Origin: a virus
DNA length: 32,082 nt
IMG/VR virus record: IMGVR_UViG_3300001533_003597
Coordinates: 1-32,082 of that record
Reading direction: 5' to 3' (one strand)
Below the pieces are notes generated by a model, which was not told the DNA's origin, did no database searches, and saw only the letters and a program-made list of their open reading frames with translations. Shown here in pieces: positions 1,527-31,962 of this stretch. Positions within the stretch are counted from its first letter, which is position 1; each line of letters begins with the position of its first letter. A program made the position numbers and the translations under genes.

Positions 1527-1536
1527 GTCATTAGTA

Positions 1537-1758
1537 ATGCATGATATTAAACCAGGCAAATACAAATGTACCAAATGTGGTAAAATCAAACCGGCTTCTG
1601 AATTCTATGTAGATGGGAGAAAGAAAAATGGGATCTCTTCCTGGTGTAAATCTTGTTCAATGGAAATGGCCAAGATAAACCGGGAGAAAAGAAAAATGGA
1701 ACAAATCAATGCTCTTAGTAAGATGCACAAAATGCAAACAATTAAAACGGATGAGTAG
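1537..1758 (+). CDS. Small zinc-ribbon protein, copy 1
   Basis: A 73-residue protein with C-T-K-C-G-K at residues 9-14 and C-K-S-C about 26 residues later, separated by the pattern 'KPASEFY..GRKKNGISSW'. The same four-Cys module precedes HNH/endonuclease VII-like domains in other phage proteins. Here it stands alone with a basic tail and no nuclease residues. I chose ATG 1537 because an earlier in-frame start at 1486 lies within the ligase gene and adds only hydrophobic shadow sequence. Its 3' end overlaps the next gene, a paralogue, by 50 bases. Role unknown; nucleic-acid or protein binding is inferred. Confidence 0.7.
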   Translation: MHDIKPGKYKCTKCGKIKPASEFYVDGRKKNGISSWCKSCSMEMAKINREKRKMEQINALSKMHKMQTIKTDE

Positions 1759-1915
1759 CTTTCCCAAAGATGCCAGAAAAACAAATGGCATATCTTCTTG
1801 GTGTGTTTCCTGTCACATGAAAGCAGTAGAAGAGCATAGGACCAAAAATCCTACTTCAGCTAGTTCAAAACAAGAGAAATACAGAAAAAGGAAGGAGAGA
1901 GATGAAGTGGAGTAG
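1709..1915 (+). CDS. Small zinc-ribbon protein, copy 2 (paralogue of the preceding gene)
   Basis: A 68-residue protein with C6-T-K-C9 and C32-V-S-C35 around 'FPKDARKTNGISSW'. It is clearly homologous to the gene before it (shared CTKC, R-K-x-N-G-I-S-S-W-C and C-x-x-C), followed by a charged, Lys/Glu-rich helical tail. It overlaps both neighbours: 50 bases with copy 1 in another frame and 14 bases with the next gene. Expression is therefore probably translationally coupled. A duplication followed by overlap of the reading frames is the simplest history. No enzymatic residues are seen. Confidence 0.7.
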   Translation: MLLVRCTKCKQLKRMSSFPKDARKTNGISSWCVSCHMKAVEEHRTKNPTSASSKQEKYRKRKERDEVE

Positions 1916-2096
1916 ACTTGCTAATGAAAACCATAACTTATCTTGTGACATTTGTGAAAGAACAGATCGACCTGTCTATGTTCTCAGAGGAGAAAACGGA
2001 AAAAGTTCCATTCTCATGTGTGATTTCTGTTCAATTGATATAGTACCAGAAATAGAATTAAAAGGAGAAAAGACACAAGAAGGCAATATTTTTTAG
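1902..2096 (+). CDS. Small CxxC-CxxC protein
   Basis: A 64-residue protein with C15-D-I-C18 and C40-D-F-C43, so it could hold one zinc ion. The spacer contains a short beta-hairpin-like segment (RPVYVLRGENGKSSILMC). It is preceded by a strong ribosome site (GGAAGGAGAG) about 5 bases before ATG 1902, inside the tail of the previous gene. It is third in a row of small zinc-binding proteins but is not obviously a copy of the other two. Function unknown. Confidence 0.65.
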   Translation: MKWSRLANENHNLSCDICERTDRPVYVLRGENGKSSILMCDFCSIDIVPEIELKGEKTQEGNIF

Positions 2097-2134
2097 TTTT
2101 TCAATGCTAAGAAACAAACTAAGATGACAATCGA

Positions 2135-2156
2135 TATTTGGCAATGTTGCCAAATA
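2135..2156. promoter_or_regulatory. 22-bp palindrome before the basic-protein gene
   Basis: The arms TATTTGGCAA (2135-2144) and TTGCCAAATA (2147-2156) are perfect complements around a TG centre. The site lies in the 80-base gap after the zinc-ribbon genes and ends 9 bases before the ribosome site AGGAGA of the gene at 2177. It could be a protein operator or an RNA stem-loop controlling or processing the message. No T-run follows, so it is not an intrinsic terminator. Confidence 0.5.
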
Positions 2157-2176
2157 AAACTTTTAGGAGAGCCGAA

Positions 2177-2542
2177 ATGGCCAAGTCGACAGAGGCAAAA
2201 AAAGAGAAGAACAGTAAGGAAGACAAGGAGAAAGGAAAAAAGAGAAAGAAAACAACCATTAGTTTTCTCGTCTGCGCTTATCTTGACAAAAAACCTGACG
2301 CAGACACAAAAGAAGTTCGGGATCATATTGTGGAGAATGGTTTTCCTGATACCAAATTCAATAAGTCTCATCTTGCTTGGTACAAATACCAGCTCCGCAA
2401 AGGAAAATTGAAACTCCCGTCTGGAAAAGAGTTCCCTAAGTCGAATAGGAAAAAGACAGCAAAAAAGGAGACTAACACTTCCAAATCAACAACCAAGAAA
2501 ACCAAGAAGACTAAGAAAACCAAAAAGGCAAAAAAGGACTAA
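2177..2542 (+). CDS. Lysine-rich histone-like DNA-binding protein (putative)
   Basis: A 121-residue protein in three parts. It has a charged Lys/Glu N-terminus (1-27) and a compact helical core (about 28-82, TISFLVCAYLDKKPDADTKE onward, including FNKSHLAWYKYQLRKGKLKLP) that may be a small DNA-binding fold. It ends in a histone H1-like tail of repeated T-K-K units. I chose ATG 2177 over the in-frame ATG at 2138 because AGGAGAGCCGAA sits just before it, and because 2138 lies inside the palindrome. With the next small gene it forms a cassette between the palindrome and a strong terminator, suggesting high expression. Nucleoid coating or packaging is inferred. Confidence 0.65.
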   Translation: MAKSTEAKKEKNSKEDKEKGKKRKKTTISFLVCAYLDKKPDADTKEVRDHIVENGFPDTKFNKSHLAWYKYQLRKGKLKLPSGKEFPKSNRKKTAKKETNTSKSTTKKTKKTKKTKKAKKD

Positions 2543-2571
2543 TTCAGAACCTTCTTCTTTAGGAACTTCAA

Positions 2572-2742
2572 ATGGCAAAGAAAGAACGCGTTGATATTCC
2601 CATGCATGTGGGTAAGGTTTGTAAGAGCAGCATTCGTTATGAGTCTGACGATCCTACTGCTCTTATCACAAACGTATATGTAAACAAGTCTTTTTCTTCA
2701 GAAATGCCTGATAAAATCATTATCAGTATTTCTCAAGACTAA
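2572..2742 (+). CDS. Conserved-looking small phage protein (56 aa)
   Basis: The frame begins MAKKERVDIPMHVGKVCKSS and ends KIIISISQD. AGGA lies 8 bases before ATG 2572, and the TAA is immediately followed by a strong terminator. The alternating hydrophobic pattern (VDIPMHVGKV, ALITNVYVNKS, KIIISIS) suggests a small all-beta protein. C- and G-ending codons are more frequent than in most neighbours, as in the basic protein and the SSB-like gene, which fits an abundantly made product. Function unknown. Confidence 0.6.
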   Translation: MAKKERVDIPMHVGKVCKSSIRYESDDPTALITNVYVNKSFSSEMPDKIIISISQD

Positions 2743-2750
2743 AGTTTCTT

Positions 2751-2793
2751 GCCAGCAGTCATTTATCTGTTTAAATGGCTGCTGGCTTTTTTT
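2751..2793 (+). terminator. Strong intrinsic terminator
   Basis: GCCAGCAGTCATTTA (2751-2765) pairs with 2772-2786 over 15 positions with one G-T wobble. The loop is 6 bases (TCTGTT), and seven T residues follow (2787-2793). It closes the small-protein cassette and separates it from the base-modification and polymerase genes downstream. Those genes therefore need read-through or their own promoter; I see no convincing promoter in the 31 bases before the next start. Confidence 0.88.
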
Positions 2794-2823
2794 CTACTAA
2801 CTTTTTGGAAAAAGGAACTAACA

Positions 2824-3918
2824 ATGGCTTTTTTGACAGTTGGTAATACTTGGGATTACTCTTTACTTAGACTAATTAGTAGTCTGAACATGGAGTACAC
2901 AGAAACAAAAGTAATAACTGACACTCTCTTTGGCAATACCACAATAAATCCTATAGGTAATGCAAGAACTACTAATCGTCTTCAAGACTTATCTATGGAA
3001 CAAACACAGGAATTCATAGAAGAGGCCCATAAATTAGGCATACGTGTTGCCTGGACAATTAATGTTTCCTGTGTAGGCAATACAGCCGAATTTGTTAATT
3101 GGATAATGTCTAACAAAAAATGGCTAAGGAACTTTTTCTCCGAACTTAATCCAGATATTCTAATCATAGCAAACCCCTTAGTTATGCTTACCTTAACTGA
3201 GATAGGTATCGATATCCCAATAGAAATCTCTACCATTGCCAATATCTCAGAACCTAATCAAATTGCATACCTCATCAGTTTAGGATGTAACATTACCCGA
3301 GTCTGTTTACCAGTACATCAGAATAGAAATATAGAATTCCTTTCTTCTATGGGGCGTTTTGGTAAAACCCACGGTATTGAAATGGAAGTCATAGCTAATG
3401 AGTTTTGTTTCTTAGACAAATGCAACTGTGAAGGAGTTTTTAGACGTTCTTGCTATGACATGAATGCCCATGCTACAGAAAAAGGAGAAGTGGACAATGT
3501 TTTCTCTTTTCCTCGTAAACTTTGTACTGAAGCAAGATTAAGGGATCCTGTTAATTGGTTAAGAGCAAAATGGATTCTACCACAGATGATGCCTCAATAT
3601 GAAGATTTAGGCATACATCATTTTAAGATAACCGGTAGAACTCATCCAACTGCTTTCTTGGCTAATATTCTTCCGCATTATTATTCCAGACTTTTCCATG
3701 GAAACTTGTTAGAGTTATGGCCCCACATACAGACAATAGGGAAAAAGAACTTCCAAGAAACACAAAAGGAAACAATTTCCAATGCTCCTTTTATCAACAC
3801 AAAAGGCTTAGATTGGTTCACACAACACATTCTATCAAAATGTAAAAATGATTGTTCTTCTTGTTCCTTTTGCCAAATAGCATATGCCAAATTAAGAAAG
3901 GAAGGATATGTTTCATGA
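2824..3918 (+). CDS. U32 peptidase-family protein (Fe-S hydroxylase-like), phage-encoded
   Basis: A 364-residue protein with a TIM-barrel-like series of strands (VAWTINVSCVGNT, DILIIANPLVML, PIEISTIANISEP, ITRVCLP, GIEMEVIANEF). A Cys cluster follows: C195, C200, C202, C210 and C234, in the context E193-F-C...C-x-C...R-R-S-C-Y. This matches the U32 family. Its characterised members (TrhP, RlhA, UbiU/UbiV) hold a 4Fe-4S cluster and hydroxylate tRNA U34, 23S rRNA C2501 or ubiquinone precursors without O2; most are not peptidases. A second cluster, C340-x3-C344-x2-C347-x2-C350, lies at the C-terminus. I chose ATG 2824 (AAAGGAACTAACA before it); the longer frame from 2749 runs through the terminator. 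The substrate is unknown. Confidence 0.75.
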   Translation: MAFLTVGNTWDYSLLRLISSLNMEYTETKVITDTLFGNTTINPIGNARTTNRLQDLSMEQTQEFIEEAHKLGIRVAWTINVSCVGNTAEFVNWIMSNKKWLRNFFSELNPDILIIANPLVMLTLTEIGIDIPIEISTIANISEPNQIAYLISLGCNITRVCLPVHQNRNIEFLSSMGRFGKTHGIEMEVIANEFCFLDKCNCEGVFRRSCYDMNAHATEKGEVDNVFSFPRKLCTEARLRDPVNWLRAKWILPQMMPQYEDLGIHHFKITGRTHPTAFLANILPHYYSRLFHGNLLELWPHIQTIGKKNFQETQKETISNAPFINTKGLDWFTQHILSKCKNDCSSCSFCQIAYAKLRKEGYVS

Positions 3919-4451
3919 GATACCCATTAGATCAATTTCATAATCCAGCAATTGAAGAACCCTGTGACGGGGATTCTCTTATAGACATAGAGAGATGGTG
4001 TACTAGATATAATCAATTGTATAATATCCAAAACGCAATTACTAGATTCTGTATTGGGGCTTATCAAGTAGGACAAGCCCTAAAAGACACCTCAATAACA
4101 AGAGAATTTCGCATAGAAGCAATTGGGGCTAGTGTACTCCATACTATCTGTGCTTTGAAAATGGCTAAAGGAAGTATAGCTCATCTAGGTCAGGTCCATC
4201 TGTCAAGCATAGAAGGAATAATAGATATTAGAAAAACATTCGAAGCACAATGTCTGTTAATCCAACAATTCTTTTATCTTTGTGGAAGTGATGTAGGACA
4301 AATCAGGAAAAAAAGAATCAACATAGGAGAAATAGAGCAACTAACACAGGTATATGTCCAAAATATAGTAAGACTCATTCTTCCTAAAGAAAGAAGCAAA
4401 GGAATAGAACAAGCTTCAACTCAGCTCTTGAACAAGGAATTCGAAAAGTGA
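3915..4451 (+). CDS. Unknown helical protein of the modification cluster
   Basis: A 178-residue protein starting MRYPLDQFHNPAIEEPCDGD at ATG 3915, which overlaps the upstream stop (ATGA) and has AAGGAAGG in front. It is predominantly helical by inspection (IERWCTRYNQLYNIQNAITR, EFRIEAIGASVLHTICALKM). There is no membrane segment and no motif I recognise. The fold size would suit an all-alpha MazG-like protein, but the E-x-x-E/E-x-x-D metal motif is not visible, so I do not call it that. Tight coupling to the U32-like gene before it and the glycosylase-like gene after it suggests a shared job. Confidence 0.6.
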   Translation: MRYPLDQFHNPAIEEPCDGDSLIDIERWCTRYNQLYNIQNAITRFCIGAYQVGQALKDTSITREFRIEAIGASVLHTICALKMAKGSIAHLGQVHLSSIEGIIDIRKTFEAQCLLIQQFFYLCGSDVGQIRKKRINIGEIEQLTQVYVQNIVRLILPKERSKGIEQASTQLLNKEFEK

Positions 4452-5104
4452 ATAATAGAACAAAGACAAAAATCAGATTAATAGCAAGAGATAAAAGAGA
4501 AACAAAACTAAACATGGTAGCTAAAGCCATTTTAGATTGTTCACAATGTCTCCATTTGGCTAGAGGAACTGGATATGGAGATCCATTAAGTAGAATAATG
4601 ATAGTAGCTCAATCTCTTCATGCTCCTTGCCCTTTCACAGAAAAAGAAATTCCTTTTGTCGGACCTTCCTATGTAGACTCAGGAGATGTTCTTTTTTCTG
4701 CATTAGAAAGAGCTTCTATTCGGGTAGAAGATTGTTGGACTACTAATCTAGTTAAATGTCATACACCTAAGAACAGACCAAGCACAAATGAAGAAATACA
4801 AAAATGTAAACATTTTCTTGAGCTAGAACTTTCCATTATAAAACCTTTATTTGTTTTTGCTCTTGGTAATCAAGCTTTTACTTTTCTCAAATCTTCTAGT
4901 TCAGTAGCCAAGAAACACATTCGAGCACATCATACGTATACAGTTAAAAGCAAGTATTATGGAGTAGATTTGAAATTTTTCCTTATCCATCTCAAACATC
5001 CTAGTTGGGCCATGCGAAATGGAGAAGTAGAAGAAGAAAGATGGGTAATGGAAGCTGCCAAACAATTCAAAAGAGCTAAAAGAGTAATAGAAAGAGAGGA
5101 GTAA
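4448..5104 (+). CDS. Family 4-like uracil-DNA glycosylase with an altered active-site motif
   Basis: A 218-residue protein with the four Fe-S ligand positions of family 4/5 glycosylases: C31-S-Q-C34, C104 (in N-L-V-K-C) and C120 (in I-Q-K-C-K). It also has PFVGPS (69-74), the N100-L-V-K-C-H-T-P strand and the C-terminal HPS motif (184-186). Motif A, normally G-E-x-P-G, reads V53-A-Q-S-L-H-A-P60, so the usual active-site residues are lost. The protein may bind or excise another base, or may be inactive. The GTG start at 4448 overlaps the previous stop and has AAGGA upstream. ATG 4514 would give a more typical 196-residue protein. Confidence 0.8.
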   Translation: MNNRTKTKIRLIARDKRETKLNMVAKAILDCSQCLHLARGTGYGDPLSRIMIVAQSLHAPCPFTEKEIPFVGPSYVDSGDVLFSALERASIRVEDCWTTNLVKCHTPKNRPSTNEEIQKCKHFLELELSIIKPLFVFALGNQAFTFLKSSSSVAKKHIRAHHTYTVKSKYYGVDLKFFLIHLKHPSWAMRNGEVEEERWVMEAAKQFKRAKRVIEREE

Positions 5105-5105
5105 A

Positions 5106-5924
5106 ATGATTTTTCGTCAACTACAAGGCCTTTCAAATCTTTGTCATTCTTCACCTTTATCTGAAGATGAGATAAAGACTTTTCTTAACCTAAGAGAAGA
5201 AGACATCAATGATATTTTAGATTCTTCAATTGCTCCTTTTTACATCTCTCATCAGAGAAAGCATGCTGATATCCCTGGCATTTCATCTTGGTGGGACTTC
5301 ATGCTTGGAAACAAAATAAAAGAAACAAGGAAAGTAGCTTTTACTTCAGAAATATATATGAAAGCTATGTTGTTCCGTTGTTTCCTGTGTTATAAGCACA
5401 TGCCTATAGGATTACTAAGAAGAATAATAAATAAAAAAGATAAGATACTAGATTTGGGAGGAGGACCTGGTTTCTTTTCTGCCTTGTCTTTTATATTTGG
5501 AGCAGAACCTCATTATTTAGATAAGGAAAGTATTGCTTCAAAACTCACCCAAGCATTCAAACAAAACATTTGTGTTTTATTCGGTAATTTTCCTGAAGTC
5601 CTTCTTCCTTCCCCATTTAAGACAATTTTTGCCAATGAAGTTTTTCATGGAAGAAGTAAAGAAGAACAAGTACATTGGATAAGGAATCTATTACCGAACA
5701 TCTTAGAAAATAAAGGAAAAATCATAGTAAATGAGGTAACTCCCAAGGGCTCTACTCTATATAGTCGTTTCTTTGATAGCAGGATAAAAACAATGACAGA
5801 TGGAAAAGGTTCAGCTCTGACTCCAAAGGAACTTATCCATTTGTTCGGAGACCAATATACTATTACCAATTTGGTAACTTGGCATTCTCTCCCATACTAC
5901 ACTGCCATTTTTGAAAAGGAATAA
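5106..5924 (+). CDS. Class II (COMT/acetylserotonin-type) SAM-dependent O-methyltransferase
   Basis: A 272-residue protein. Residues 1-110 are a helical N-terminal domain. Residues 111-272 form a Rossmann methyltransferase: motif I I114-L-D-L-G-G-G-P-G122, an acidic residue after strand 2 (D139), and GNFPE (160-164). The segment NEVFHGRSKEEQVHWIRNLL, then GKIIVNEVTPKG, matches the 'LHDWSDE...GGKVIIVE' region of class II O-methyltransferases. H181 falls at the catalytic-base histidine. The family methylates hydroxyl groups on aromatic rings; the substrate here is unknown. GAGGAG lies 5 bases before ATG 5106. The close coupling to the U32-like gene suggests it methylates a hydroxyl made by that protein. 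Confidence 0.75.
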   Translation: MIFRQLQGLSNLCHSSPLSEDEIKTFLNLREEDINDILDSSIAPFYISHQRKHADIPGISSWWDFMLGNKIKETRKVAFTSEIYMKAMLFRCFLCYKHMPIGLLRRIINKKDKILDLGGGPGFFSALSFIFGAEPHYLDKESIASKLTQAFKQNICVLFGNFPEVLLPSPFKTIFANEVFHGRSKEEQVHWIRNLLPNILENKGKIIVNEVTPKGSTLYSRFFDSRIKTMTDGKGSALTPKELIHLFGDQYTITNLVTWHSLPYYTAIFEKE

Positions 5925-5933
5925 AACACCACA

Positions 5934-7853
5934 ATGGCAATCTTCTCCTTAGACTTAGAAACAACAAGCACAGATTTCAATAGGGGTTCCATAATAATGG
6001 CCTCTTGGTGTGGGACTGATCTGGTTCCTCATGCAGAACTCTGGTCTAACTTATTAAGGAACAAAATTGCCAGATGGTTATATGACCCCAAAAATACTGT
6101 CATTACCCAGAACGGTGTCTTTGACTATTCCTGGCTTCTTAAAAAAGGGATAATAGTTCGGGCAAAACAACATGACACCATGATAGCAAGTCATGTAATA
6201 GAATCTAATGCACCTGCAGACTTAGGTTCTTTAGTCAACAGGTATCTTACCCAGGAACTTTTTGATAATGCTGGCATTGAAATACAGATAGACGAAACAT
6301 GGAAAAAAGATGGACCAAAACTATGGCTCAAAGAAAATTCTAAATGGATAAGAAGAGAAAAAGGTAGAAAACCTCATTTCGGTGATGTTCCCACTTCTTT
6401 GTTACTTTCATATGCTAAAAAAGATGCTCTCCACACATTATTAGTTTGGTTCACTCTAAAAGGATTTTTAAAAGGAAAGAACAAATGGTCTTATGATCTT
6501 GACATGGCCATGCTTCCTATCATTTTGGGAATGAAGTTAAGAGGAATACCATTAGATGTTTCTTTATGTAGAAGAAGAAAGTTAGAACTAGAAAAAGAAC
6601 AACAGGCTTTTCTCGATTACTTCAACATTGATAAAGTAGGACCAAAAGCCATAATAGAAAAAATCTTTCCGGTCCTAGGAATAAAGCCCAGATATAAAAC
6701 AGAGAAAGGAAATTGGAGACTAAATGAAAGAGCTATCAGACAATATCAAGTTCTGTTTCCAGAACATGCCGAAATTCTTGAACGGCTCATACAATACAGA
6801 AAAGCCAAACAATCAAGTGGAACATATTATTCTGGTTGGTTAAAATGTTTGCATAGAGGGAAAATTAATCCCACCTTCAATTTGACCAATGCTAAAACTG
6901 GAAGATTTTCTTCTAGTGGACCGAATTTCCAGAATGTTAAAAAGAGAGGAGGAGAAAGAGCAGCTTTTCTGGTAAGACCAGGTTACATCAACCTGCATTG
7001 GGACTATGATCAAATAGAACTACGTATCCTTGCTCACTATTCAAGAGAACCACATCTAGTTGACATTTTTCAAAAAGGGATAGACCCGCATACTAGAACA
7101 GTAGAACTTATGGGGATAACAGAAGAAAATGCCAAATCTTTCTTATCTGGTAAATATAGAGAACAAGACCCTAGATTCATAGGAAAACAAGTAAACTATT
7201 CCTACTGGTATGGCATGGGACCATTAGCTCTTTCTCTTGACCTTGGTATTCCATTAAAAAAGGCCAAAGAACTTTTTCAAAGATACAGAATGGCATATCC
7301 AAAAGCGGAAACATGGTCTAGGAATACCATAAATGAAGCAAAAAGAATTGGTTATGTAGAAGACATTTTTGGCAGACGCTATTATCCCGACGATAAATGG
7401 AGTTACTACAAGTTAATCAACTATCTAATCCAAGGAACTGCAGCTCAGGTCATAAAATTGGGGATGCTAAGAGCCCAATATTTTTTATGCAAGGATCCAA
7501 GATTTTTAACGATAATCCGTGATATTCCATTGCATACAATGCATGGCATCGAATTATTAACTATACATGATGAAATTGGAATAGAAGTAGAGGACAAACA
7601 GAAAAAAGTAGAATATGTCATACCAGGAATAACAGAAGCTTTAACCATTAAAGACATCTTCATTATTCCACTAACAGTTGGATTAAAATGGACTAGAACT
7701 AACTGGGCAGAATTAAAGGAAATAGAAAAGGAACCCATAACATGGGGTACAATTAAAGATGAAAAAAGACACAAGATGCATTCTAGTAGACACAAGAGAA
7801 AAAAGACCTTGGAAATTCAAAGCGCAAAAAAAGGATACTCTAAAATATGGTGA
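5934..7853 (+). CDS. Family A DNA polymerase with 3'-5' exonuclease
   Basis: A 639-residue replicative polymerase. The exonuclease domain has Exo I D7-x-E9, Exo II N60-G-V-F-D64 and Exo III Y160-x3-D164. Polymerase motif A is W356-D357-Y-D-Q-I-E-L-R364, motif B R414...K418-Q-V-N-Y422-S-Y-W-Y426-G, and motif C H545-D546-E547. Tyr422 falls at the position of Phe762 of E. coli Pol I (Tyr in T7), the residue tied to dideoxynucleotide acceptance. There is no 5'-nuclease domain. The fold should end near residue 595; the remaining 40 residues are a basic tail whose coding DNA overlaps the ERCC4 gene by 95 bases in another frame. Confidence 0.95.
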   Translation: MAIFSLDLETTSTDFNRGSIIMASWCGTDLVPHAELWSNLLRNKIARWLYDPKNTVITQNGVFDYSWLLKKGIIVRAKQHDTMIASHVIESNAPADLGSLVNRYLTQELFDNAGIEIQIDETWKKDGPKLWLKENSKWIRREKGRKPHFGDVPTSLLLSYAKKDALHTLLVWFTLKGFLKGKNKWSYDLDMAMLPIILGMKLRGIPLDVSLCRRRKLELEKEQQAFLDYFNIDKVGPKAIIEKIFPVLGIKPRYKTEKGNWRLNERAIRQYQVLFPEHAEILERLIQYRKAKQSSGTYYSGWLKCLHRGKINPTFNLTNAKTGRFSSSGPNFQNVKKRGGERAAFLVRPGYINLHWDYDQIELRILAHYSREPHLVDIFQKGIDPHTRTVELMGITEENAKSFLSGKYREQDPRFIGKQVNYSYWYGMGPLALSLDLGIPLKKAKELFQRYRMAYPKAETWSRNTINEAKRIGYVEDIFGRRYYPDDKWSYYKLINYLIQGTAAQVIKLGMLRAQYFLCKDPRFLTIIRDIPLHTMHGIELLTIHDEIGIEVEDKQKKVEYVIPGITEALTIKDIFIIPLTVGLKWTRTNWAELKEIEKEPITWGTIKDEKRHKMHSSRHKRKKTLEIQSAKKGYSKIW

Positions 7854-8187
7854 TTATTCTATTTTGGGATCTAAAACCAAGATAGTAATAGAAAGAAAAG
7901 CTCTTATAGATTTATTTGTTACTTTTTCTCAAAACAGATGGCCTAAGTTCTATTCCAAAATGCTCAAAGCAACAGAAAAATTGGACTATGTCTTCCTATT
8001 CATAGAAGCTAGTTTATCGGAAATAAGGAATGGGATTCCATATTCTAAACTTCCTACCACATATATCATGAACAGAATCTGTGATTTAATGGCAATAGGA
8101 GTACAAGTCATTTTTACAGGAAACTCAAAACAAGGACCAATTTTTGCAGAAAGGATACTTAGGAAATTGACAAATGGAAAATCCTAA
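7759..8187 (+). CDS. XPF/ERCC4-type nuclease
   Basis: A 142-residue single-domain nuclease. It has L9-V-D11-T-R-E14-K-R-P-W, then G31-D32-Y and the defining G-D-Xn-E45-R-K47-x3-D51 motif of the XPF/MUS81 family. Stand-alone ERCC4 domains of this size are frequent in phage replication modules, probably cutting branched DNA. It must start at ATG 7759 because the first motif begins nine residues later and no other in-frame start is nearby. It therefore truly overlaps the polymerase gene by 95 bases. Its last 14 bases overlap the next gene. Confidence 0.88.
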   Translation: MKKDTRCILVDTREKRPWKFKAQKKDTLKYGDYSILGSKTKIVIERKALIDLFVTFSQNRWPKFYSKMLKATEKLDYVFLFIEASLSEIRNGIPYSKLPTTYIMNRICDLMAIGVQVIFTGNSKQGPIFAERILRKLTNGKS

Positions 8188-8371
8188 AGAAAATATTACT
8201 GCTTATCTAGAATCAGAATGTGTTTCGGTCATAGATGCTATAGCCATAAGAAATAGAAGATCTAGAAATTATGTCATTGCTACCATTTTAAAAAGCTTCA
8301 CAACTCTCTCAATTGAACAACAAAGAGAAATGTTCACAGCACTGGGTTGTTGGGAATTGACAAATGGATGA
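8174..8371 (+). CDS. Small ribbon-helix-helix-like protein
   Basis: A 65-residue protein. ENITAYLESECVSVIDAIAI followed by RNRRSRNYVIATILKSF fits the strand-helix-helix plan of Arc/CopG DNA-binding dimers: a short beta strand, an amphipathic helix, an R-S-R-x-Y-V-I turn and a second helix. ATG 8174 has AGGAAATTGACAA before it and overlaps the nuclease gene. The stop overlaps the next ATG by 8 bases. It may regulate this operon or act as an accessory subunit. The assignment rests on pattern only. Confidence 0.5.
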   Translation: MENPKENITAYLESECVSVIDAIAIRNRRSRNYVIATILKSFTTLSIEQQREMFTALGCWELTNG

Positions 8372-9332
8372 ATCACTACTAAAAACTTCACGAAACATAG
8401 CAAAACTTTTTCCTGTTGCAAAAGATCCTCATGCCTCTGTATCTAGTGTCATGAATTTTCTAAACTGCAGGAGAAGTGCCTATTATCATTCCTACAGAAG
8501 AATAGTGATTAAGAAAGCCAGACTTTCACTTGAGATGGGAACAATATGGCATGCAGCTCTTGCTACTTGGTATAGTACCAAAAGTACGACTAGAGCAAAA
8601 ACAGAAATTCGTAATGTTATCAAAGAACTAGTAAAAGATGGCTTTAGCTCTTTCAATACTCCACATGAAATAGAAGTTGCCACAGCAACACAGATGGGCA
8701 TGTTACTTGGGTATACTAAAGCACATAAGGAAGATTTAAAGAATTGGGATTGGCTAGATGTAGAAATGGAATTTGAAATTCCGAACATCTTTGGTTTAGG
8801 TATATTATTCCACGGTTTCATAGACGGAGTAATCTATATAGATAAAGGACCAATGAAAGGACTTTGGATAGTAGAACACAAGTCCACAAGAGACCTTAAT
8901 TTCTTTACCCTAGAAACTGTCAAAGACAGTTTTCAAGCTCTTTGTTATATCTGGGCATACTATACTTTAACCGGAGATAAACCAAAGGGCATTATCTGGA
9001 ATGCTGTAAGAAAACCTTCCAAAAGACTAAAGAAAAATCAGACCACAGAAGATTTTTGTCAGGAACTAAAAGAGGATTATGTTGCTAGACCTGATTTCTA
9101 TTTCTTTCGTGAACAACCTTTCATCCCTCTTTCAACCATTATGAATTGGGAAGAACAGTTCAAACGAATTATGGCAGATGTAGCCATCTGTTTCAATTCT
9201 CCTCAAAATCTTTCTCTATGGTATAAGAATACTAGTATGTGCAGACAATATGGTGGATGTGAATTTGCTCCTCTGTGTCAAAGGGGAGAAAAGAGATCCA
9301 CACTAGCGCTCTATAGGAGTATAGACAAATGA
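8364..9332 (+). CDS. PD-(D/E)XK exonuclease, RecB/Cas4-like with Fe-S cysteines
   Basis: A 322-residue protein. The nuclease core has H63, G151-F-I-D154-G, E171-H-K173-S-T (the D...ExK triad) and the QALCYIWAY helix (Q191), as in RecB/Cas4 nucleases. One cysteine near the start (C35, LNCRRSAYY) and three at the end (C293, C299, C305) match the split 4Fe-4S site of Cas4 and AddB. The family resects DNA ends. Together with the Sak4-like ATPase and the SSB-like protein downstream it makes a phage recombination set. The start overlaps the preceding stop by 8 bases. Confidence 0.85.
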   Translation: MDESLLKTSRNIAKLFPVAKDPHASVSSVMNFLNCRRSAYYHSYRRIVIKKARLSLEMGTIWHAALATWYSTKSTTRAKTEIRNVIKELVKDGFSSFNTPHEIEVATATQMGMLLGYTKAHKEDLKNWDWLDVEMEFEIPNIFGLGILFHGFIDGVIYIDKGPMKGLWIVEHKSTRDLNFFTLETVKDSFQALCYIWAYYTLTGDKPKGIIWNAVRKPSKRLKKNQTTEDFCQELKEDYVARPDFYFFREQPFIPLSTIMNWEEQFKRIMADVAICFNSPQNLSLWYKNTSMCRQYGGCEFAPLCQRGEKRSTLALYRSIDK

Positions 9333-9829
9333 ATATGTTACAAAAGTGTGTCAGGATTTTTCAAGAAGTAGCAGGATACCCAGTAAAAGAAAAACCAATA
9401 AAAAATAAGGACTTACTTAAAATCATAGAAACTCCAAAAGGAAAGCAAACAGTAAAAGAATATTTGATAACTCGACTTTCGTGGAAAGAAGAAGAAGTTA
9501 AAGAACTTAGAAAAGCAATAGAAGAAAATGATGTAATAGAAATAGTAGATGCTCTTGTAGACTTACTCTATTTTGTCTTTGGCACTGGCTGTACTATTGG
9601 GGTAGATTTAGAAGAAGTTTTCCATGTCATTCATAACAATAATATGTCCAAGTTCACGAAATGTGAAAATTGTAATGGAAAAGGAACAGTAGGAAGCTTT
9701 ATTTGTTCTGTTTGCAATGGTTATGGGATAAAAGGAAAATACAGAAAAAGAGATGGCAAATTAATGAAACCTGCAACTTGGACACCTCCAAATATTGGCA
9801 AAAAACTCGAGGAACTTAGAAATGGCTAA
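9329..9829 (+). CDS. MazG-like NTP pyrophosphohydrolase fused to a DnaJ-type zinc finger
   Basis: A 166-residue protein. Residues 40-109 carry the all-alpha MazG/PRA-PH metal site: E54-E-E-x-x-E59, then E71-I-V-D74-A-L-V-D78 and a terminal N-N-N-M-S-K-F. MazG-like enzymes hydrolyse nucleoside triphosphates to monophosphates. The domain is joined directly to C112-x2-C115-x-G-K-G...C126-x2-C129-x-G-Y-G, half of a DnaJ-type zinc-binding repeat. AGGAG lies 9 bases before ATG 9329. The gene overlaps the previous one by 4 bases and the next one by 8. Substrate unknown; nucleotide-pool cleaning is inferred. Confidence 0.8.
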   Translation: MNMLQKCVRIFQEVAGYPVKEKPIKNKDLLKIIETPKGKQTVKEYLITRLSWKEEEVKELRKAIEENDVIEIVDALVDLLYFVFGTGCTIGVDLEEVFHVIHNNNMSKFTKCENCNGKGTVGSFICSVCNGYGIKGKYRKRDGKLMKPATWTPPNIGKKLEELRNG

Positions 9830-10586
9830 ACCAAAAATTGCAAACAAAACATATCCTTTTTCCGGAATAGAGTTAAATGAACCTGTACACGATCTATTAG
9901 GATATACAGTATTTATCTATGGTCCACCAAAAGTAGGAAAAACAACTGCTGCTGTAAGTTGGCCTAATCCAATAGTCTTTGCTTGTGAAGTGAAAGGAAT
10001 TAGTGCATTAAAGGTAAACCACATAAAGATAAGATCTTGGGATAACTTTACTAAAGCTGTCAAAACGATGAAAAGGAAAGCCAATAAAAACAAATTCAAA
10101 ACAGTAATCATAGACACTGTAGATTTGATGTATAAATATTGTTTAGATTTTTGCTGTGACAAGTATGGCTTTGAACACCCCTCTGATCAAGGTTGGGCAA
10201 AAGGATGGGAAGCTGTTGCAGATGAATTTATGGCAGCAGTTTTAGACCTATTTGACACTGGCTACACACTTATTTTCTTGAGTCACACAAAAGAAACTGA
10301 AGTAGAGGAAGATTGGGAAAAATTTACTAGAACCAATCCCACCCTATCAGGAACAGGTAGACGTGTCTTACTTCCACTAGTAGATGTTATCCTTTACATG
10401 ACTGCCAGAACAACAAAGAAAGGAGGTTCAATAAGAACAGTAACTACTAAAGGAGCAAGAGCGTATGAAGCAGGAGATAGGACAAAAGGTTTAACTGACG
10501 TAACCATCCGAATTCCTTCAAAAATGAAGGACAAAGCTTACGATCTAATTTGTGCTGTGTATAAGGAAAACACAGCAAACCTGTAA
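9822..10586 (+). CDS. Sak4-like RecA-fold ATPase (AAA_24 type)
   Basis: A 254-residue protein with Walker A G34-P-P-K-V-G-K-T41, Walker B T94-V-I-I-D98 and a sensor-like F152-L-S-H155 strand. This is the layout of phage Sak4 single-strand annealing/recombination ATPases. It starts at ATG 9822 with GAGGA 8 bases upstream; a TTG at 9795 in the same frame is less likely. Sak4 proteins typically work with the phage SSB encoded next to them, as here. Expected role: annealing or strand exchange during replication-coupled recombination. Confidence 0.82.
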   Translation: MAKPKIANKTYPFSGIELNEPVHDLLGYTVFIYGPPKVGKTTAAVSWPNPIVFACEVKGISALKVNHIKIRSWDNFTKAVKTMKRKANKNKFKTVIIDTVDLMYKYCLDFCCDKYGFEHPSDQGWAKGWEAVADEFMAAVLDLFDTGYTLIFLSHTKETEVEEDWEKFTRTNPTLSGTGRRVLLPLVDVILYMTARTTKKGGSIRTVTTKGARAYEAGDRTKGLTDVTIRIPSKMKDKAYDLICAVYKENTANL

Positions 10587-10613
10587 GTCTCTACTAAGAA
10601 AGGAAAGAGACAA

Positions 10614-11138
10614 ATGGCTAAGACGTCGAAGAAATCGTCCAAAAAGACAAAGGTTCCCCCCGCTTTGGCTAATCTTTCAAAGTTCCTGAAAAAGGCAAAA
10701 CCAAAACAAGGAACAGTATCTCTTCCTGACGGCTCCTACCAGGGCCGTATCACAGGAATCGATTTCACCACAACCCAGACAGGAAAGCCACAGATTGATT
10801 GGACTTTGACTGTTATCGCAGGAGAAGCAGAAGGCAGGACTCAACACAAGTACGATCTTCTCGCTACTCAGGACAATGTGGATTGGCTGTTTGGTACTCT
10901 TGAAACCCTTGGGGTGGAAGACATGCCACAATCCAAAGCTGAACTCCAGAAAGTCCTCGAAAGCTTTATCGGCACTTCGGTAGAGTTCTCCGTCCGTAAC
11001 CAAGGAGATTTCTGCAATGTCTACATAAACGACATCCTCGAAGACGATGAAGAAGAGGAAGAAGAGGAAGAGGAAGAGGAGGAAGAGGAAGAAGAGGAAG
11101 AAGAGGAAGAAGAAGAAGAGGAGGAAGAAGAAGATTAG
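10614..11138 (+). CDS. SSB-like phage protein (DUF669-type) with a poly-glutamate tail
   Basis: A 174-residue protein. It has a basic N-terminus (1-30), an OB-like beta core (31-140: GSYQGRITGIDFTTTQTGKP, WTLTVIAGEAEGR, KYDLLATQDN, SVEFSVRNQGDFCNVYIND) and an acidic tail from D144 of about 28 consecutive Glu ending in Asp. The core resembles the DUF669 single-strand-binding proteins that pair with Sak4/RecT-type recombinases. Acidic tails of SSBs recruit partner enzymes; this one is unusually long and pure. AAGGAAAGAGACAA precedes the ATG. More C- and G-ending codons than neighbours suggest high expression. Last gene before the operon terminator. Confidence 0.78.
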   Translation: MAKTSKKSSKKTKVPPALANLSKFLKKAKPKQGTVSLPDGSYQGRITGIDFTTTQTGKPQIDWTLTVIAGEAEGRTQHKYDLLATQDNVDWLFGTLETLGVEDMPQSKAELQKVLESFIGTSVEFSVRNQGDFCNVYINDILEDDEEEEEEEEEEEEEEEEEEEEEEEEEEEED

Positions 11139-11256: not shown

Positions 11257-11336
11257 CTACGAATTTTACTACGAAGCTTTAATGATCTATGCATCATACG
11301 ACTTTTTTCCGTTTAAATTCGTAGCTGTTTTCGTAG
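11257..11336. repeat. Symmetric array of four CTACGAA boxes
   Basis: CTACGAA occurs at 11257-11263 and 11269-11275, and its complement TTCGTAG at 11318-11324 and 11330-11336. Both inverted pairs share exactly the same centre (between 11296 and 11297), and the boxes within each pair are 12 bp apart. A shorter palindrome-like core (ATGAT...ATCAT) lies between. A further TACGAAA lies at 11221. The rest of the 295-base gap between the converging operons is AT-rich and holds no gene. The CTACG core recurs in the right-end repeat region, suggesting binding sites for one protein. Confidence 0.65.
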
Positions 11337-11433
11337 CTTCTACAGCATCGGAAAACAACACAAAAACGTTACAAAGCAGCATTTAAAGCACCACAAAGAA
11401 GTCTATTTTGAGCAAGACATATTTTATACAAGA

Positions 11434-11718
11434 TCATACTGACCACAAGCCCAAAGGACATTTAGCCTTGCCTTCCCTTATTTCTCGCCTCCGCCGACAT
11501 GCCGACATTGCCACAAATGGGCAATCTTCAATAATTGCCGCCTCGTTCTCAGGAACACTGGGATGCGCCAGCCGCTCGCGGCACGCCTCGCAGATCGCCC
11601 CGATATGTCGTATCAGATCATTGGCGTGGTCGGGCGGCATGGGCGGCGGCGCCGGGCGGCCGTCCCGGGCGGCGGCGAGCGCCACCAGCACCATGATGAC
11701 CAGCACTGTGCGCATCAC
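11434..11718 (-). CDS. Small secreted or membrane-anchored Cys-rich protein
   Basis: A 94-residue protein with a hydrophobic N-terminal segment (TVLVIMVLVALAAA, residues 4-17) that fits a signal peptide or anchor. A Pro-rich stretch follows, then a Cys-rich domain: I-G-A-I-C-E-A-C, E-D-C-P-F, S-A-C-R-R-R and C-P-L-G-L-W. The domain is shared with the gene just upstream on the same strand, so the two are paralogues. It overlaps that gene by 4 bases. It is GC-rich, unlike most of the window. Last gene of the minus-strand operon. Function unknown. Confidence 0.6.
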   Translation of the reverse strand: MMRTVLVIMVLVALAAARDGRPAPPPMPPDHANDLIRHIGAICEACRERLAHPSVPENEAAIIEDCPFVAMSACRRRREIREGKAKCPLGLWSV

Positions 11719-12044
11719 GTGTCACCTCCTGATTTCCAGAGTCCCAGCGGACAGACCGCCACCCCCGCCCGAATCAGGCTGCGCCGCTGACAGGCCGGCA
11801 AGGCCGCAAACGGGCAGTCCTCAATCGTGTCGAGATCAGGATTGTCGATCTCAGACGGGTCCTGGAGCCTCGCGCCGCAGGCCTCGCAGAGGGCTCCAAT
11901 CCGGTCATATTCGGTCGCGAGAGCCTCCTGTCGCCCAACGAAGGCGGGATCAGGGGGCGAGGGCGAAGGGTAACGCCTCTGTGGTCGAGCCCGCCCCATT
12001 CGCAGCCGCCATAGGTCGTCGGGGGTCAGGTAGGTAATGGGCAC
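11715..12044 (-). CDS. Cys-rich protein, paralogue of the downstream gene, without signal peptide
   Basis: A 109-residue protein whose residues 45-105 (IGALCEACGARL, IEDCPFAALPACQRR, VCPLGLW) match the C-terminal domain of the 94-residue protein at 11434-11718, with five Cys in the same pattern (CxxC, C, C, C). The N-terminus is Arg/Pro-rich and not hydrophobic, so this copy should stay in the cytoplasm or virion. It begins 19 bases inside the 3' end of the preceding gene (12026). Strongly GC-rich. Function unknown. Confidence 0.6.
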   Translation of the reverse strand: MPITYLTPDDLWRLRMGRARPQRRYPSPSPPDPAFVGRQEALATEYDRIGALCEACGARLQDPSEIDNPDLDTIEDCPFAALPACQRRSLIRAGVAVCPLGLWKSGGDT

Positions 12045-12838
12045 ACCTCCGTGCAGCTACTGCCGGTGTCGATGATCTCGACCTCGCCGTCGCTGGAGAT
12101 TCCCTCGACCGTCACGCGGTACCACACGCCGTCCGAAAGCTTGACCACCTTCCCGACGTGCGGGCCAAGCTGGGGCGAGTGGCTGTAGATCGGGTCGCCG
12201 CCGGGGCAGGACTCGTCGCCATTCTCCACGTCGCCGGGGCGGATGGTGGCCGTGCCGTCTGTGGTCGCGCCAAACCAGGTGCCCAGGTAGGCGTCGCCGG
12301 GGCACGAGGGATCATAGACATGATCGAGCACGGTTGGCGTCAGGCAGTCCCAGGTGTTCCCCGCGTCGAGCCCTCCCGACCAGAACAACTCAGCCTGCCC
12401 GAAATTATGCCCCCAAGCGATAACGCGCACATTGACAGCCTTGTCCCAACGAAGCGAGACATGCGCCTCAACCGCGTAGCCGACCTGCCAGCGCTCGCAA
12501 GGACACCCTGTCGCGGTGGAGCAGACTTCCCATCGACCGTCGTATGGGCCCGACCCCGACCAATGGCAATCCCCGGTCATCGGACAAGCGATGGACAGAG
12601 GGTTCGACGGAGGCGTTTCCCACATGCATAGATCGACGCATGCCGGCGGATAAGTCACGTCAATCTTTACCGTCACGATCCACGGCGCGGGGTTCGGGTG
12701 GCACGTGCCGCAGAAGGAAAACGGGTAACACGGCGACAGCTTGAAGATCGTCGTCCCATCATCACAGCAGCAATCGGGGTGCATTGCAACTGCCCCATTG
12801 TCAAACAGTATATCACCTTCCCAGAATTGAACAGCCAT
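12026..12838 (-). CDS. GC-rich, Cys-rich putative tail-tip or virion protein
   Basis: A 270-residue protein beginning MAVQFWEGDILFDNGAVAMH and unusually rich in Cys, Trp, Gly and Pro (for example DCCCDDG, CYPFSFCGTCHPNP, CSTATGCPCERW). A beta-rich extracellular-type domain with disulfides is likely. The last segment (GKVVKLSDGVWYRVTVEGIS followed by SDGEVEIIDTG) looks like a small beta-barrel. It follows the distal tail genes by three bases, and the composition changes from AT-rich to GC-rich exactly at that boundary. I infer a virion surface or receptor-contact protein gained by transfer. No named family recognised. Confidence 0.6.
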   Translation of the reverse strand: MAVQFWEGDILFDNGAVAMHPDCCCDDGTTIFKLSPCYPFSFCGTCHPNPAPWIVTVKIDVTYPPACVDLCMWETPPSNPLSIACPMTGDCHWSGSGPYDGRWEVCSTATGCPCERWQVGYAVEAHVSLRWDKAVNVRVIAWGHNFGQAELFWSGGLDAGNTWDCLTPTVLDHVYDPSCPGDAYLGTWFGATTDGTATIRPGDVENGDESCPGGDPIYSHSPQLGPHVGKVVKLSDGVWYRVTVEGISSDGEVEIIDTGSSCTEVCPLPT

Positions 12839-12841
12839 TGT

Positions 12842-29354: not shown

Positions 29355-30842
29355 TCATTTCTTTTTCATTTCCCTTGCTAACCTTGTCTTAGCTTGACCT
29401 CTTCTCTTAGCAGCATATGCAAATCTTTTTCCTTCCTCTGTTAACTTTAATCCAATATAACACAATCTCTGTTTCCCTCTTTTTCCTCTTCTTCTAACCA
29501 ATACCTCAGGAAAGGCATTTTGTATCAAGGAACGAATATATGTTCTTGTTTGTCCTTTCGTTTGCCTTCCTTCACTTTTACTCCAAGCAATCCATGCATC
29601 TTGGACATCTTTCATATCTACACCAATAAGTCTTCTACTGTGTAGGTCCCTTGCTTTGGTTTTTTTCAAACAAGATCTACAGAAAACATTGATAGGACTA
29701 TCCAAATCTTTGTATAACTGATGTTTTTCTTTACCTGATTTAGGTTCTTTAAGATTTTCTCCCTTTCTAAGCCTTTTCAAACCGTCAATTGCCCAATTTG
29801 CAATACCTGGTAATTCTTCTAATAATCGTTTCTCTATTTCCGGATCTTCTTTTCCAGCAAAAGAATAATTGAAAGGGAAAACAATACAACGAGAAGACAA
29901 TTTATTAGTTGGATCTGGCCATTTCAAAGCTTCATTAGAGGTTATAGTGAACCTTACTTTTAATTTTACACCATTCAATGTTCCTAAATATTTTCTTGGG
30001 ATATCTATAGTATCTTCACCAATAATTGCAGCCAAAGTTTCCAATACTACTTTGGAATCCACATCCCTTCCTATACTAGCCTCAGGAACAATTGCAGCTA
30101 ATTTATCCATCAATGCTTGAAGGGTATATTGGTTTTTGCCTATCTGTGTTAGGGTAGGACTGGCACAATTCCAAGATCCCAACATTTCTTTCAATACTCT
30201 TGTAGCGGTTCCTTTACCACTTCTAGGAAGACCAGAAAAATGAGCAAATCTTTGTTTTGAGGTATCCCCTACTAGATTATACCCAAACCAGAGCTGCAAA
30301 CAATCTATCCAGTCCTTATCCCCATTACTAACAGAATTCATCCAGGAAAGCCAATTCGGGCACTTTGCTTTCCTATCAAAGGGATACGGTAAAATGCGTT
30401 CTGTAAACCAGTTCGGTGTATGTTTATATAATTTGCCATTTTCTATGTCCAAAAGACCATTTTCAAAAGAGATTAGGTTTTCTGGAGAACAAATAGCCTT
30501 TTCTTCATCAATCCAGAAAAAACTGGTTTCATCAGACGAAAACATCACTTTTGCAAGAATCCCATCCAAAACTTCATTCACCACTCTAATATTACAAGAA
30601 GTGGAAACCAATTCCCCATCTCTGCCATACCTTTTCAAGTCAAAATTGGTTAACCAAGTTCTTAAACTGGCTCTAAATACTTCATCACTAACAGAGGAAA
30701 AATAACCATTGTTCCATTCAAACCACTGAGCATTAAACCTCAAAAGCCTTAAAAACTTTTCCTTATAAACAAATAGATCGGATAAAAAGAAATCCGCTAC
30801 CTCATCTGGTTCAGAAATATTCAATACTTCTATTTCTCCCAT
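29355..30842 (-). CDS. SF3 (D5/P4-type) replicative helicase
   Basis: A 495-residue protein. Residues 1-195 look like the D5_N region (AICSPENLISFENGLLDIEN, YPFDRKAKCPNWLSWM). The SF3 ATPase has Walker A G204-L-P-R-S-G-K-G-T212, Walker B LAAIVPE254A, motif C F298-T-I-T-S-N-E304 and an arginine finger in SSR318CIVFPF. The C-terminus is very basic and may bind DNA. No prim-pol or TOPRIM primase domain is visible, so the primase activity is missing or supplied by the host. P4 alpha-type helicases recognise origin repeats; the repeat-rich region starts about 400 bases upstream. Confidence 0.88.
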   Translation of the reverse strand: MGEIEVLNISEPDEVADFFLSDLFVYKEKFLRLLRFNAQWFEWNNGYFSSVSDEVFRASLRTWLTNFDLKRYGRDGELVSTSCNIRVVNEVLDGILAKVMFSSDETSFFWIDEEKAICSPENLISFENGLLDIENGKLYKHTPNWFTERILPYPFDRKAKCPNWLSWMNSVSNGDKDWIDCLQLWFGYNLVGDTSKQRFAHFSGLPRSGKGTATRVLKEMLGSWNCASPTLTQIGKNQYTLQALMDKLAAIVPEASIGRDVDSKVVLETLAAIIGEDTIDIPRKYLGTLNGVKLKVRFTITSNEALKWPDPTNKLSSRCIVFPFNYSFAGKEDPEIEKRLLEELPGIANWAIDGLKRLRKGENLKEPKSGKEKHQLYKDLDSPINVFCRSCLKKTKARDLHSRRLIGVDMKDVQDAWIAWSKSEGRQTKGQTRTYIRSLIQNAFPEVLVRRRGKRGKQRLCYIGLKLTEEGKRFAYAAKRRGQAKTRLAREMKKK

Positions 30843-30846
30843 TACT

Positions 30847-31023
30847 TCACTCTATTATAAAAAGTTCCATGTTTTCTTTTGCCAATATTTTTGCTTCCTT
30901 ATCTTTTCCCTTTGCCAACAGTAAAACCACTTTATTCCCAATCCTTTCTCTCTTTTTTCGTCTTTGCTTCGTCCTGCTCATCTTTTCTCTTGCAGAAAAA
31001 GGCATAGTTTGCCCTTTTTTCAT
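30847..31023 (-). CDS. Small basic protein (58 aa), first gene of the minus-strand operon
   Basis: The frame begins MKKGQTMPFSAREKMSRTKQ at ATG 31023 and ends MELFIIE with TGA at 30847-30849, 4 bases before the helicase ATG. AAAGGAAAAAG precedes the start. A run of Arg/Lys (RRKKRER) is followed by an amphipathic helix (VVLLLAKGKDKEAKILAKEN). It is probably nucleic-acid binding, perhaps an accessory to the helicase. The coding call rests on spacing and ribosome site; function unknown. Confidence 0.55.
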   Translation of the reverse strand: MKKGQTMPFSAREKMSRTKQRRKKRERIGNKVVLLLAKGKDKEAKILAKENMELFIIE

Positions 31024-31252: not shown

Positions 31253-31331
31253 CCGTAGCAGTCCGTATCACCACCGTAGTAATCCCGTAGTAACTTCTAA
31301 GTGCTTGATTCGTATGCCGTAGTATCCGTAG
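31253..31331. repeat. Helically phased CCGTAG iterons
   Basis: CCGTA(G/T) starts at 31253, 31263, 31274, 31285, 31317 and 31326. The first four are spaced 10, 11 and 11 bp, and the fifth is 32 bp further, so all but the last lie on one face of the helix. The last part forms the left arm of a long inverted repeat. This is typical of initiator or repressor binding arrays. Confidence 0.75.
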
Positions 31332-31501
31332 CTCTACAAACTCAGCGCATTATTTAATTATAAAACGTAATAATAGGTACATAGGTTAGGTATAGGTAAT
31401 GGTATTAGATCAGAACGGCGTTATCGCGTGTATATATAATAACAATGCGCGCAAAAAAAGCTACTACGGACGCTACGGCATACGAATCAAGCACTTAGAA
31501 G
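31294..31501. repeat. Long inverted repeat (38-bp arms) around an AT-rich core; candidate replication origin
   Basis: 31294-31322 is perfectly complementary to 31473-31501 (29 bp). With two mismatches the match extends to 38 bp (31294-31331 with 31464-31501). The 132 bases between include long A/T stretches (31350-31363, TATATATAAT at 31431-31440) and a GCGCGC block. Iterons plus an AT-rich unwinding-type segment, near the helicase gene, fit a theta origin. The single-strand form could also fold into a very large hairpin. Confidence 0.65.
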
Positions 31502-31511
31502 AAAAATTTAG

Positions 31512-31584
31512 AAGCTACCGTAGCTTTTTTTTTATACTACGCGAACTACGTGAACTACGAATCCTGTCCAAAACCTGTCCAAAA
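31512..31584. repeat. Further palindrome and direct repeats flanking the inverted repeat
   Basis: AAGCTAC-C-GTAGCTT (31512-31526) is a perfect palindrome running into nine T residues (31525-31533). Three CTACG repeats spaced exactly 9 bp follow (31537, 31546, 31555), the last being CTACGAA as in the 11257-11336 array. Then CCTGTCCAAAA occurs twice in tandem (31563-31573, 31574-31584), with CCTGTCC again at 31608. The palindrome plus T-run could also terminate plus-strand transcription. Confidence 0.65.
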
Positions 31585-31696
31585 CCAGATTTGAACCCTA
31601 TTCTAATCCTGTCCTATTCCCTTTTTTCTCATTACATTCAAAATCACCATAAAGTGTCTATTTTTGGACATTTTTCCTGTTTATTCCATACTGTAG

Positions 31697-31814
31697 GTGT
31701 CCCTCATTATTCCTTATGTCCCCTAATACTACTATACATGTCCCTCAATACTACTATACATGTCCCTCAATACTATACATGTCCCTCAATACTACTATAC
31801 ATGTCCCTCAATAC
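31697..31814. repeat. 22-bp tandem repeats (about 5 copies)
   Basis: Units start with ATGTCCCTCAATACT at 31716 (variant), 31738, 31760 (19 bp, three bases lost), 31779 and 31801 (partial). A diverged unit lies at 31697. The region is AT-rich, without start/stop structure of a real gene. Units follow each other without unique spacers, so this is a minisatellite-like repeat. Confidence 0.88.
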
Positions 31815-31913: not shown

Positions 31914-31962
31914 GGGAACTGTTGCTCCTTCCCAACAGTTCCCGGCTCTGTCCCAAGGACAG
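31914..31962. repeat. Two adjacent hairpins near the right end
   Basis: GGGAACTGTT (31914-31923) pairs perfectly with AACAGTTCCC (31934-31943). CTGTCC (31948-31953) pairs with GGACAG (31957-31962) around CAA. They could be single-strand recognition structures, a regulatory RNA or terminator elements. The rest of 31815-32068 shows no gene. Confidence 0.6.

Follow-up and report, generated by a model that had tools for sequence, protein, structure and literature searches.

P4 possesses crr in addition to ori. The origins of SaPIs and other PICIs consist of two sets of short iterons around a melting region and lie beside the gene of a self-loading Rep helicase (PMC6092414). The Rep of SaPI5 belongs to a Primase_Cterm / D5_N family, and Cch2, a D5-family helicase of SCCmec, uses its C-terminal domain to bind 5-nt AAGTG iterons (PMC7581432). 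Here we describe a boxed element (positions 31253-31559) that is probably the replication origin of a tailed phage and would be bound by the phage's own self-loading SF3 helicase in a SaPI/PICI- or P4-like manner. The phage is represented by the IMG/VR record IMGVR_UViG_3300001533_003597. All 32,082 bp of this record were analyzed (hereafter "the window"), and coordinates refer to positions in the whole window unless a contig is named.

The window contains two converging operons. The plus-strand operon (729-11138) encodes a DNA ligase, a U32 peptidase, a uracil glycosylase, DNA polymerase A, an ERCC4 nuclease, a PD-(D/E)XK nuclease, an AAA_24 ATPase, and a DUF669 protein. The minus-strand operon (30842-12026) comprises the genes for the SF3 helicase, terminase, a Mu-type portal, a protease, capsid protein E, and tail proteins, and the boxed element is located upstream of it. 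A tRNA-Lys gene (ttt; 639-713), which is the sole Rfam match in the record, immediately precedes the plus-strand operon. The left end of the window carries a Phage_ABA_S gene and, before it, the apparent tail of a dockerin-type protein. The stretches 1-500 and 11400-12840 are GC-rich (GC up to 0.66, with ~36-40% GC for the genome; the gene at 12026-12838 has a GC3 of 0.75) and read like recent acquisitions or assembly joins.

The element is noncoding, with no long ORF crossing it, and two-fold symmetric, as arrays of short boxes face each other across a 132-bp core. The boxes read CGTAG to the left of the core and CTACG to its right, and one additional pair is palindromic. On the plus strand, the left outer array (31253-31290) consists of CCGTAG at 31253, CCGTAT at 31263, and CCGTAG at 31274 and 31285, corresponding to steps of 10, 11, and 11 bp. 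It is followed by the left arm of a 38-bp inverted repeat (31294-31331, plus strand), which contains the conserved TAAGTGCTT and the inner left pair CCGTAGTATCCGTAG (31317-31331, plus strand; boxes at 31317 and 31326, 9-bp step). The core (31332-31463) harbors an inner dyad, GCGCATT (31345-31351) and AATGCGC (31444-31450), 13 nt inside each arm. The right arm (31464-31501, plus strand) contains the inner right pair CTACGGACGCTACGG (31464-31478; boxes at 31464 and 31473, 9-bp step). Farther to the right are the palindrome AAGCTACCGTAGCTT (AAGCTAC-C-GTAGCTT; 31512-31526), in which two boxes stand face to face, and the right outer array CTACGCGAACTACGTGAACTACG (31537-31559, plus strand) with CTACG at 31537, 31546, and 31555, again in 9-bp steps. 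The CCGTAG boxes at 10-11 bp steps, the near-perfect inverted repeat, and the palindrome listed in the initial annotation of this DNA were thus all recovered, one box copy being CCGTAT. Its direct repeats fell into two kinds: the 9-bp repeats (31536-31559) were found as described, and the 11-bp repeats CCTGTCCAAAA (31563-31586) exist but seem to belong to a distinct GTCC repeat family, which continues to 31814. The boxed element ends at ~31559.

This arrangement deviates strongly from chance. The arms of the inverted repeat, 132 bp apart, are complementary at 36 of 38 positions, and the probability of such a repeat in 32 kb is ~1e-12 according to a rough analytic estimate. CGTAG or CTACG occurs 26 times in the whole window, and 11 of these copies lie within 320 bp from position 31254 (200 dinucleotide shuffles contained 2.1 on average and never more than 4). 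Four 9-bp-phased box pairs were observed versus 0.005 expected, and the facing-array score of 20 (five CGTAG to the left and five CTACG to the right of the 132-bp gap) exceeded the null maximum of 12. The core, previously noted as AT-rich, is only modestly so, with 67% AT as compared to ~63% for the region from 24 to 32 kb; values reached 75% in 40-bp windows, and the arms of the inverted repeat contain 50-57% AT.

When IMG/VR was scanned with the helicase, one relative emerged, a contig of 10.8 kb (L004/L005) whose helicase and terminase share 54% and 57% identity, respectively, with those of this phage. Scans with the helicase profile, the DNA polymerase, and the terminase revealed no second close relative, the other terminase matches lacked similarity to the portal or helicase of this phage, and no DNA-level match was found among annotated phages. 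The initial annotation had proposed a search for the same boxes in related phages, and in the sole close relative, boxes of the same sequence indeed precede the helicase gene, with their pairing and symmetry retained. There, L005 contains at positions 350-620 CCGTAGCGTCCGTAG, a 104-bp core, CTACGGACACTACG, and an outer array at 10-11 bp steps. AAGTGCTT occupies the same place in both phages, the left outer counterpart is CTGTAG at 359 and 371, and the right outer counterpart is found at 574, 585, and 595, with ATACTACGCGA kept in both phages. Hence, the boxes, the 9-bp inner pairs, and the nested symmetry are conserved, whereas the core sequence differs and has an inner dyad of its own. CGTAG is also the most clustered 5-mer of the L005 contig, and its clustering is far beyond chance in both phages.

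The element lies ~410 bp 5' of the gene of the proposed initiator, a 495-aa SF3 helicase of the D5/P4 family (29355-30842, minus strand). The earlier placement of the element next to this gene and upstream of its operon therefore holds, except that a small basic ORF of 58 aa (30847-31023, minus strand) is situated in between. Such an ORF is common to both phages, and its counterpart on L005 (695-913) shows 39% identity over 57 aa (pairwise E 8e-14). The helicase scored 130.8 bits against TIGR01613 (curated cut-off 108.7) and matched the Pfam families D5_N and DUF5906. Its only solved sequence relative is the DNA primase 7ola (E 9e-12), which we take to be the SaPI5 primase-helicase. The full-length model of the helicase was poor (pLDDT 43.6) and was set aside. 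The C-terminal 120 residues (29358-29717, minus strand), the proposed box-binding domain, were modeled from a two-sequence alignment (pLDDT 69.7) as an RFX-type winged helix. This model resembled the RFX domain on DNA (1dp7; Z 9.9, rmsd 1.9, 76 aligned residues) and the C-terminus of the ASFV PrimPol (Z about 9). It also resembled the P4 origin-binding domain (1ka8), with 85 residues aligned at a Z of 7.4 and an rmsd of 3.1, although this Z would not be decisive by itself. Because the Foldseek E-values were weak (best 1.5e-3), we use the predicted likeness to the winged helices of RFX and of the P4 origin-binding domain as supporting evidence only.

With the SaPI/PICI origins this locus shares the two sets of iterons around a central region and a helicase from the family of the SaPI5 Rep (PMC7581432). 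It differs in that it belongs to a tailed phage that encodes a capsid, a terminase, and a DNA polymerase of its own, in its CGTAG box, and in a core that is only slightly more AT-rich than its surroundings. Moreover, PICI origins are located immediately 3' of the initiator gene, whereas the elements of this phage and of L005 are found 5' of the helicase, here with the 58-aa ORF in between. Since it is not immediately 3' of the initiator gene, we classify the element as one that would work like a PICI origin, not as a PICI origin. The resemblance to P4 consists of the TIGR01613 helicase, the modeled C-terminal winged helix, and a second cluster of boxes at another genomic site, which recalls ori plus crr; however, the box is another one, the 495-aa helicase lacks a fused primase, and the second cluster is reversed in polarity. 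Like SCCmec Cch2, which reads its iteron through the C-terminal domain (PMC7581432), the phage combines a D5-family helicase with a 5-nt iteron, but the putative Cch2 origin comprises three direct iterons downstream of the gene in contrast to the two facing arrays upstream of the gene in this phage. By analogy with SaPI Rep and Cch2 (PMC6092414, PMC7581432), we propose that several copies of the helicase would bind the CGTAG boxes via their C-terminal winged-helix domains in two arrays on opposite strands, and that these arrays would assemble two facing hexamers. These hexamers may then melt the core between the arrays and load onto the strands. DNA polymerase A, an ssDNA-binding-like protein, and the ligase, all encoded in the other operon, could act after loading.

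To assess the distribution of this layout, we applied an unbiased 5-mer clustering scan and the facing-array score to 16 phages, satellites, and plasmids that encode a homologous helicase. Arrays were located just 3' of the helicase gene in the Strep satellites Javan740 (TTAGGTT) and Javan397 (ACCAA), Staphylococcus phage DS11 (TGGGA), Paenibacillus phage Wanderer (GTAACA), and a Streptomyces plasmid (CAGGG). The clustering scan clearly singled out both Javan elements, but their facing-array scores did not exceed the null. No array adjoined the helicase gene in the sequence examined from the other 11 of the 16 loci, which include the Vibrio phages with the closest annotated helicases; ten of the 11 had no array at all, and the array of a Proteus phage was apart from the helicase gene. 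The Wanderer (L115:5085-5270) and Javan740 (L116:5400-5540) loci have a common motif close to AAACGTTGATATA, though their iterons differ.

A second scan searched for facing CGTAG pairs 90-150 bp apart, with polarity and the 9-bp step fixed by the pattern itself. Besides the relative, it recovered L085 (NrS-1-like helicase-polymerase), L126 (Prim-Pol/AAA_25), L086/L100 (Dyadobacter, DUF6371 zinc-ribbon protein), L087 (a fragment without primase), and L107, a Methylocystis element with an integrase, Prim-Pol, and DUF927. The scrambled-box control CGATG yielded 28 matches, 22 of them inside long ORFs; the six outside include L130/L139 beside Prim-Pol, L148 beside DnaB, and L146, which lies 3' of a Prim-Pol/DUF927 gene. 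As noncoding inverted CGATG arrays also adjoin Prim-Pol, DUF927, and DnaB genes, CGTAG was ruled out as a special shared recognition sequence, and in this small sample it appears to be the layout, not the box, that goes with replication genes. Matches in the JAJYIV and DOJV genomes, in Bacteroidales bin_67, and on L105, L088, L094, L096, L108, and L109 were set aside as host repeats or chance occurrences in coding sequence. In the Bacteroidales MAG bin_67, a paired GCGTAGGATGCGTAGGGTGCG-like box faces its inverse around ~95 AT-rich bp in four copies between chromosomal genes (L089:783-902, L091:2919-3037, L099:435-563, L102:5735-5853), which reads as a repeat or small mobile element. MAG DBS2-1.bin133 contains many TTCTACG/CGTAGAA repeat clusters (L092, L093, L095, L097, L098, L101, L103, L106), which read as REP-like host repeats.

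An operator or centromere-like array, at which a repressor, a partition protein, or the 58-aa basic protein would control the helicase operon, appears unlikely to account for the boxes. The element does occupy the regulatory region ahead of the operon, the intervening small basic ORF is conserved, and a promoter-like site, not above chance, is present between element and operon (31149-31120). However, no HTH_3 protein was matched in the record, and the layout recurs at the 3' ends of primase/helicase genes, where operon control is unlikely. A dual role as operator plus origin is possible. The long inverted repeat could instead act by folding, as a cruciform, RNA hairpin, or invertible switch, and the boxes be incidental; we consider this reading very improbable. 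The element strand folds far better than shuffled sequences in this phage and in L005 (z -9.8 and -3.8, respectively), and the dyads were kept despite changed sequence, but inverted box arrays yield folding by themselves. In addition, the outer arms in L005 are only 81% complementary over 27 bp, whereas box sequence and phasing were kept; neither an Rfam match nor an intrinsic terminator-like site was found in the element region, and neither a resolvase nor a tyrosine recombinase (PF00239, PF00589) was matched in the 32-kb record, which may be incomplete. An integration or DNA-packaging site is barely conceivable: this is a phage genome with terminase genes 2 kb away and a tRNA gene close to the opposite end of the contig, but unlike at an attP the possibly incomplete record has no match to an integrase family (PF00589, PF00239), and elements of the same layout share primase/helicase genes, not regularly terminase or integrase genes.

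The initial annotation had suggested cumulative GC skew as a check of the origin. The raw cumulative skew bends at the operon boundaries, with a minimum near the right end. Third codon positions and four-fold sites show an excess of C on the plus strand throughout both operons, with no switch. The raw bend thus reflects gene orientation, because the skew at synonymous sites keeps one sign across both operons, and cumulative skew was rejected as support for an origin. The skew neither supports nor refutes the origin; at synonymous sites, it would be compatible with forks moving mainly leftward. Weighing against a role as origin are this lack of a switch, the single close relative, the modest AT content of the core, the 5' position, and the 11 of 16 loci at which no array adjoined the helicase gene. 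The conservation in the relative, the P4-family helicase with its modeled P4-like C-terminal domain, and the recurrence of the layout support the originally proposed role and make the element a strong, well-supported candidate for an origin. Its way of working would be a known one, found in a new setting and with a gene order other than that of PICIs.

The gap between the convergent operons contains a second symmetric cluster (11257-11336; two CTACGAA, 42 bp, two TTCGTAG) with 12-bp steps and a polarity opposite to that of the main element. Four of the five CTACGAA copies of the window fall in this cluster, which could be another initiator site. The presence of the layout in this tailed phage, its relative, and the other phage and plasmid loci, next to P4-family as well as other primase/helicases, suggests a broader class of origins recognizable from layout alone. 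With such a class, one could predict origins in uncultivated viruses and match each to its initiator. In the literature collection that we searched, nothing direct was found on such a layout in phages beyond PICIs. It is conceivable, if rather doubtful, that facing arrays of any short phased box around a core of ~60-150 bp are the hallmark of origins in a very wide class of replicons with self-loading primase/helicases (P4/D5, DUF927, NrS-1-like, and Prim-Pol types), which would extend beyond PICIs to tailed phages, other satellites, plasmids, and integrative elements, and that the same initiator uses the second, reverse-polarity cluster as a partner site.

Additional repeats occur between the boxed element and the right end of the window. 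CTGTCC repeats are found at 31564-31614, and tandem 22-bp repeats ATGTCCCTCAATACTACTATAC follow in ~4.6 copies (31698-31814). In L005, GGGACA and GGACAG each occur once, in corresponding order. A perfect 11-bp hairpin (GGGAACTGTTG/CAACAGTTCCC) is located at 31914-31943, and L005 contains a similarly placed 12-bp hairpin (19-52) ending in TTGTTG/CAACAA; both contigs end nearby.
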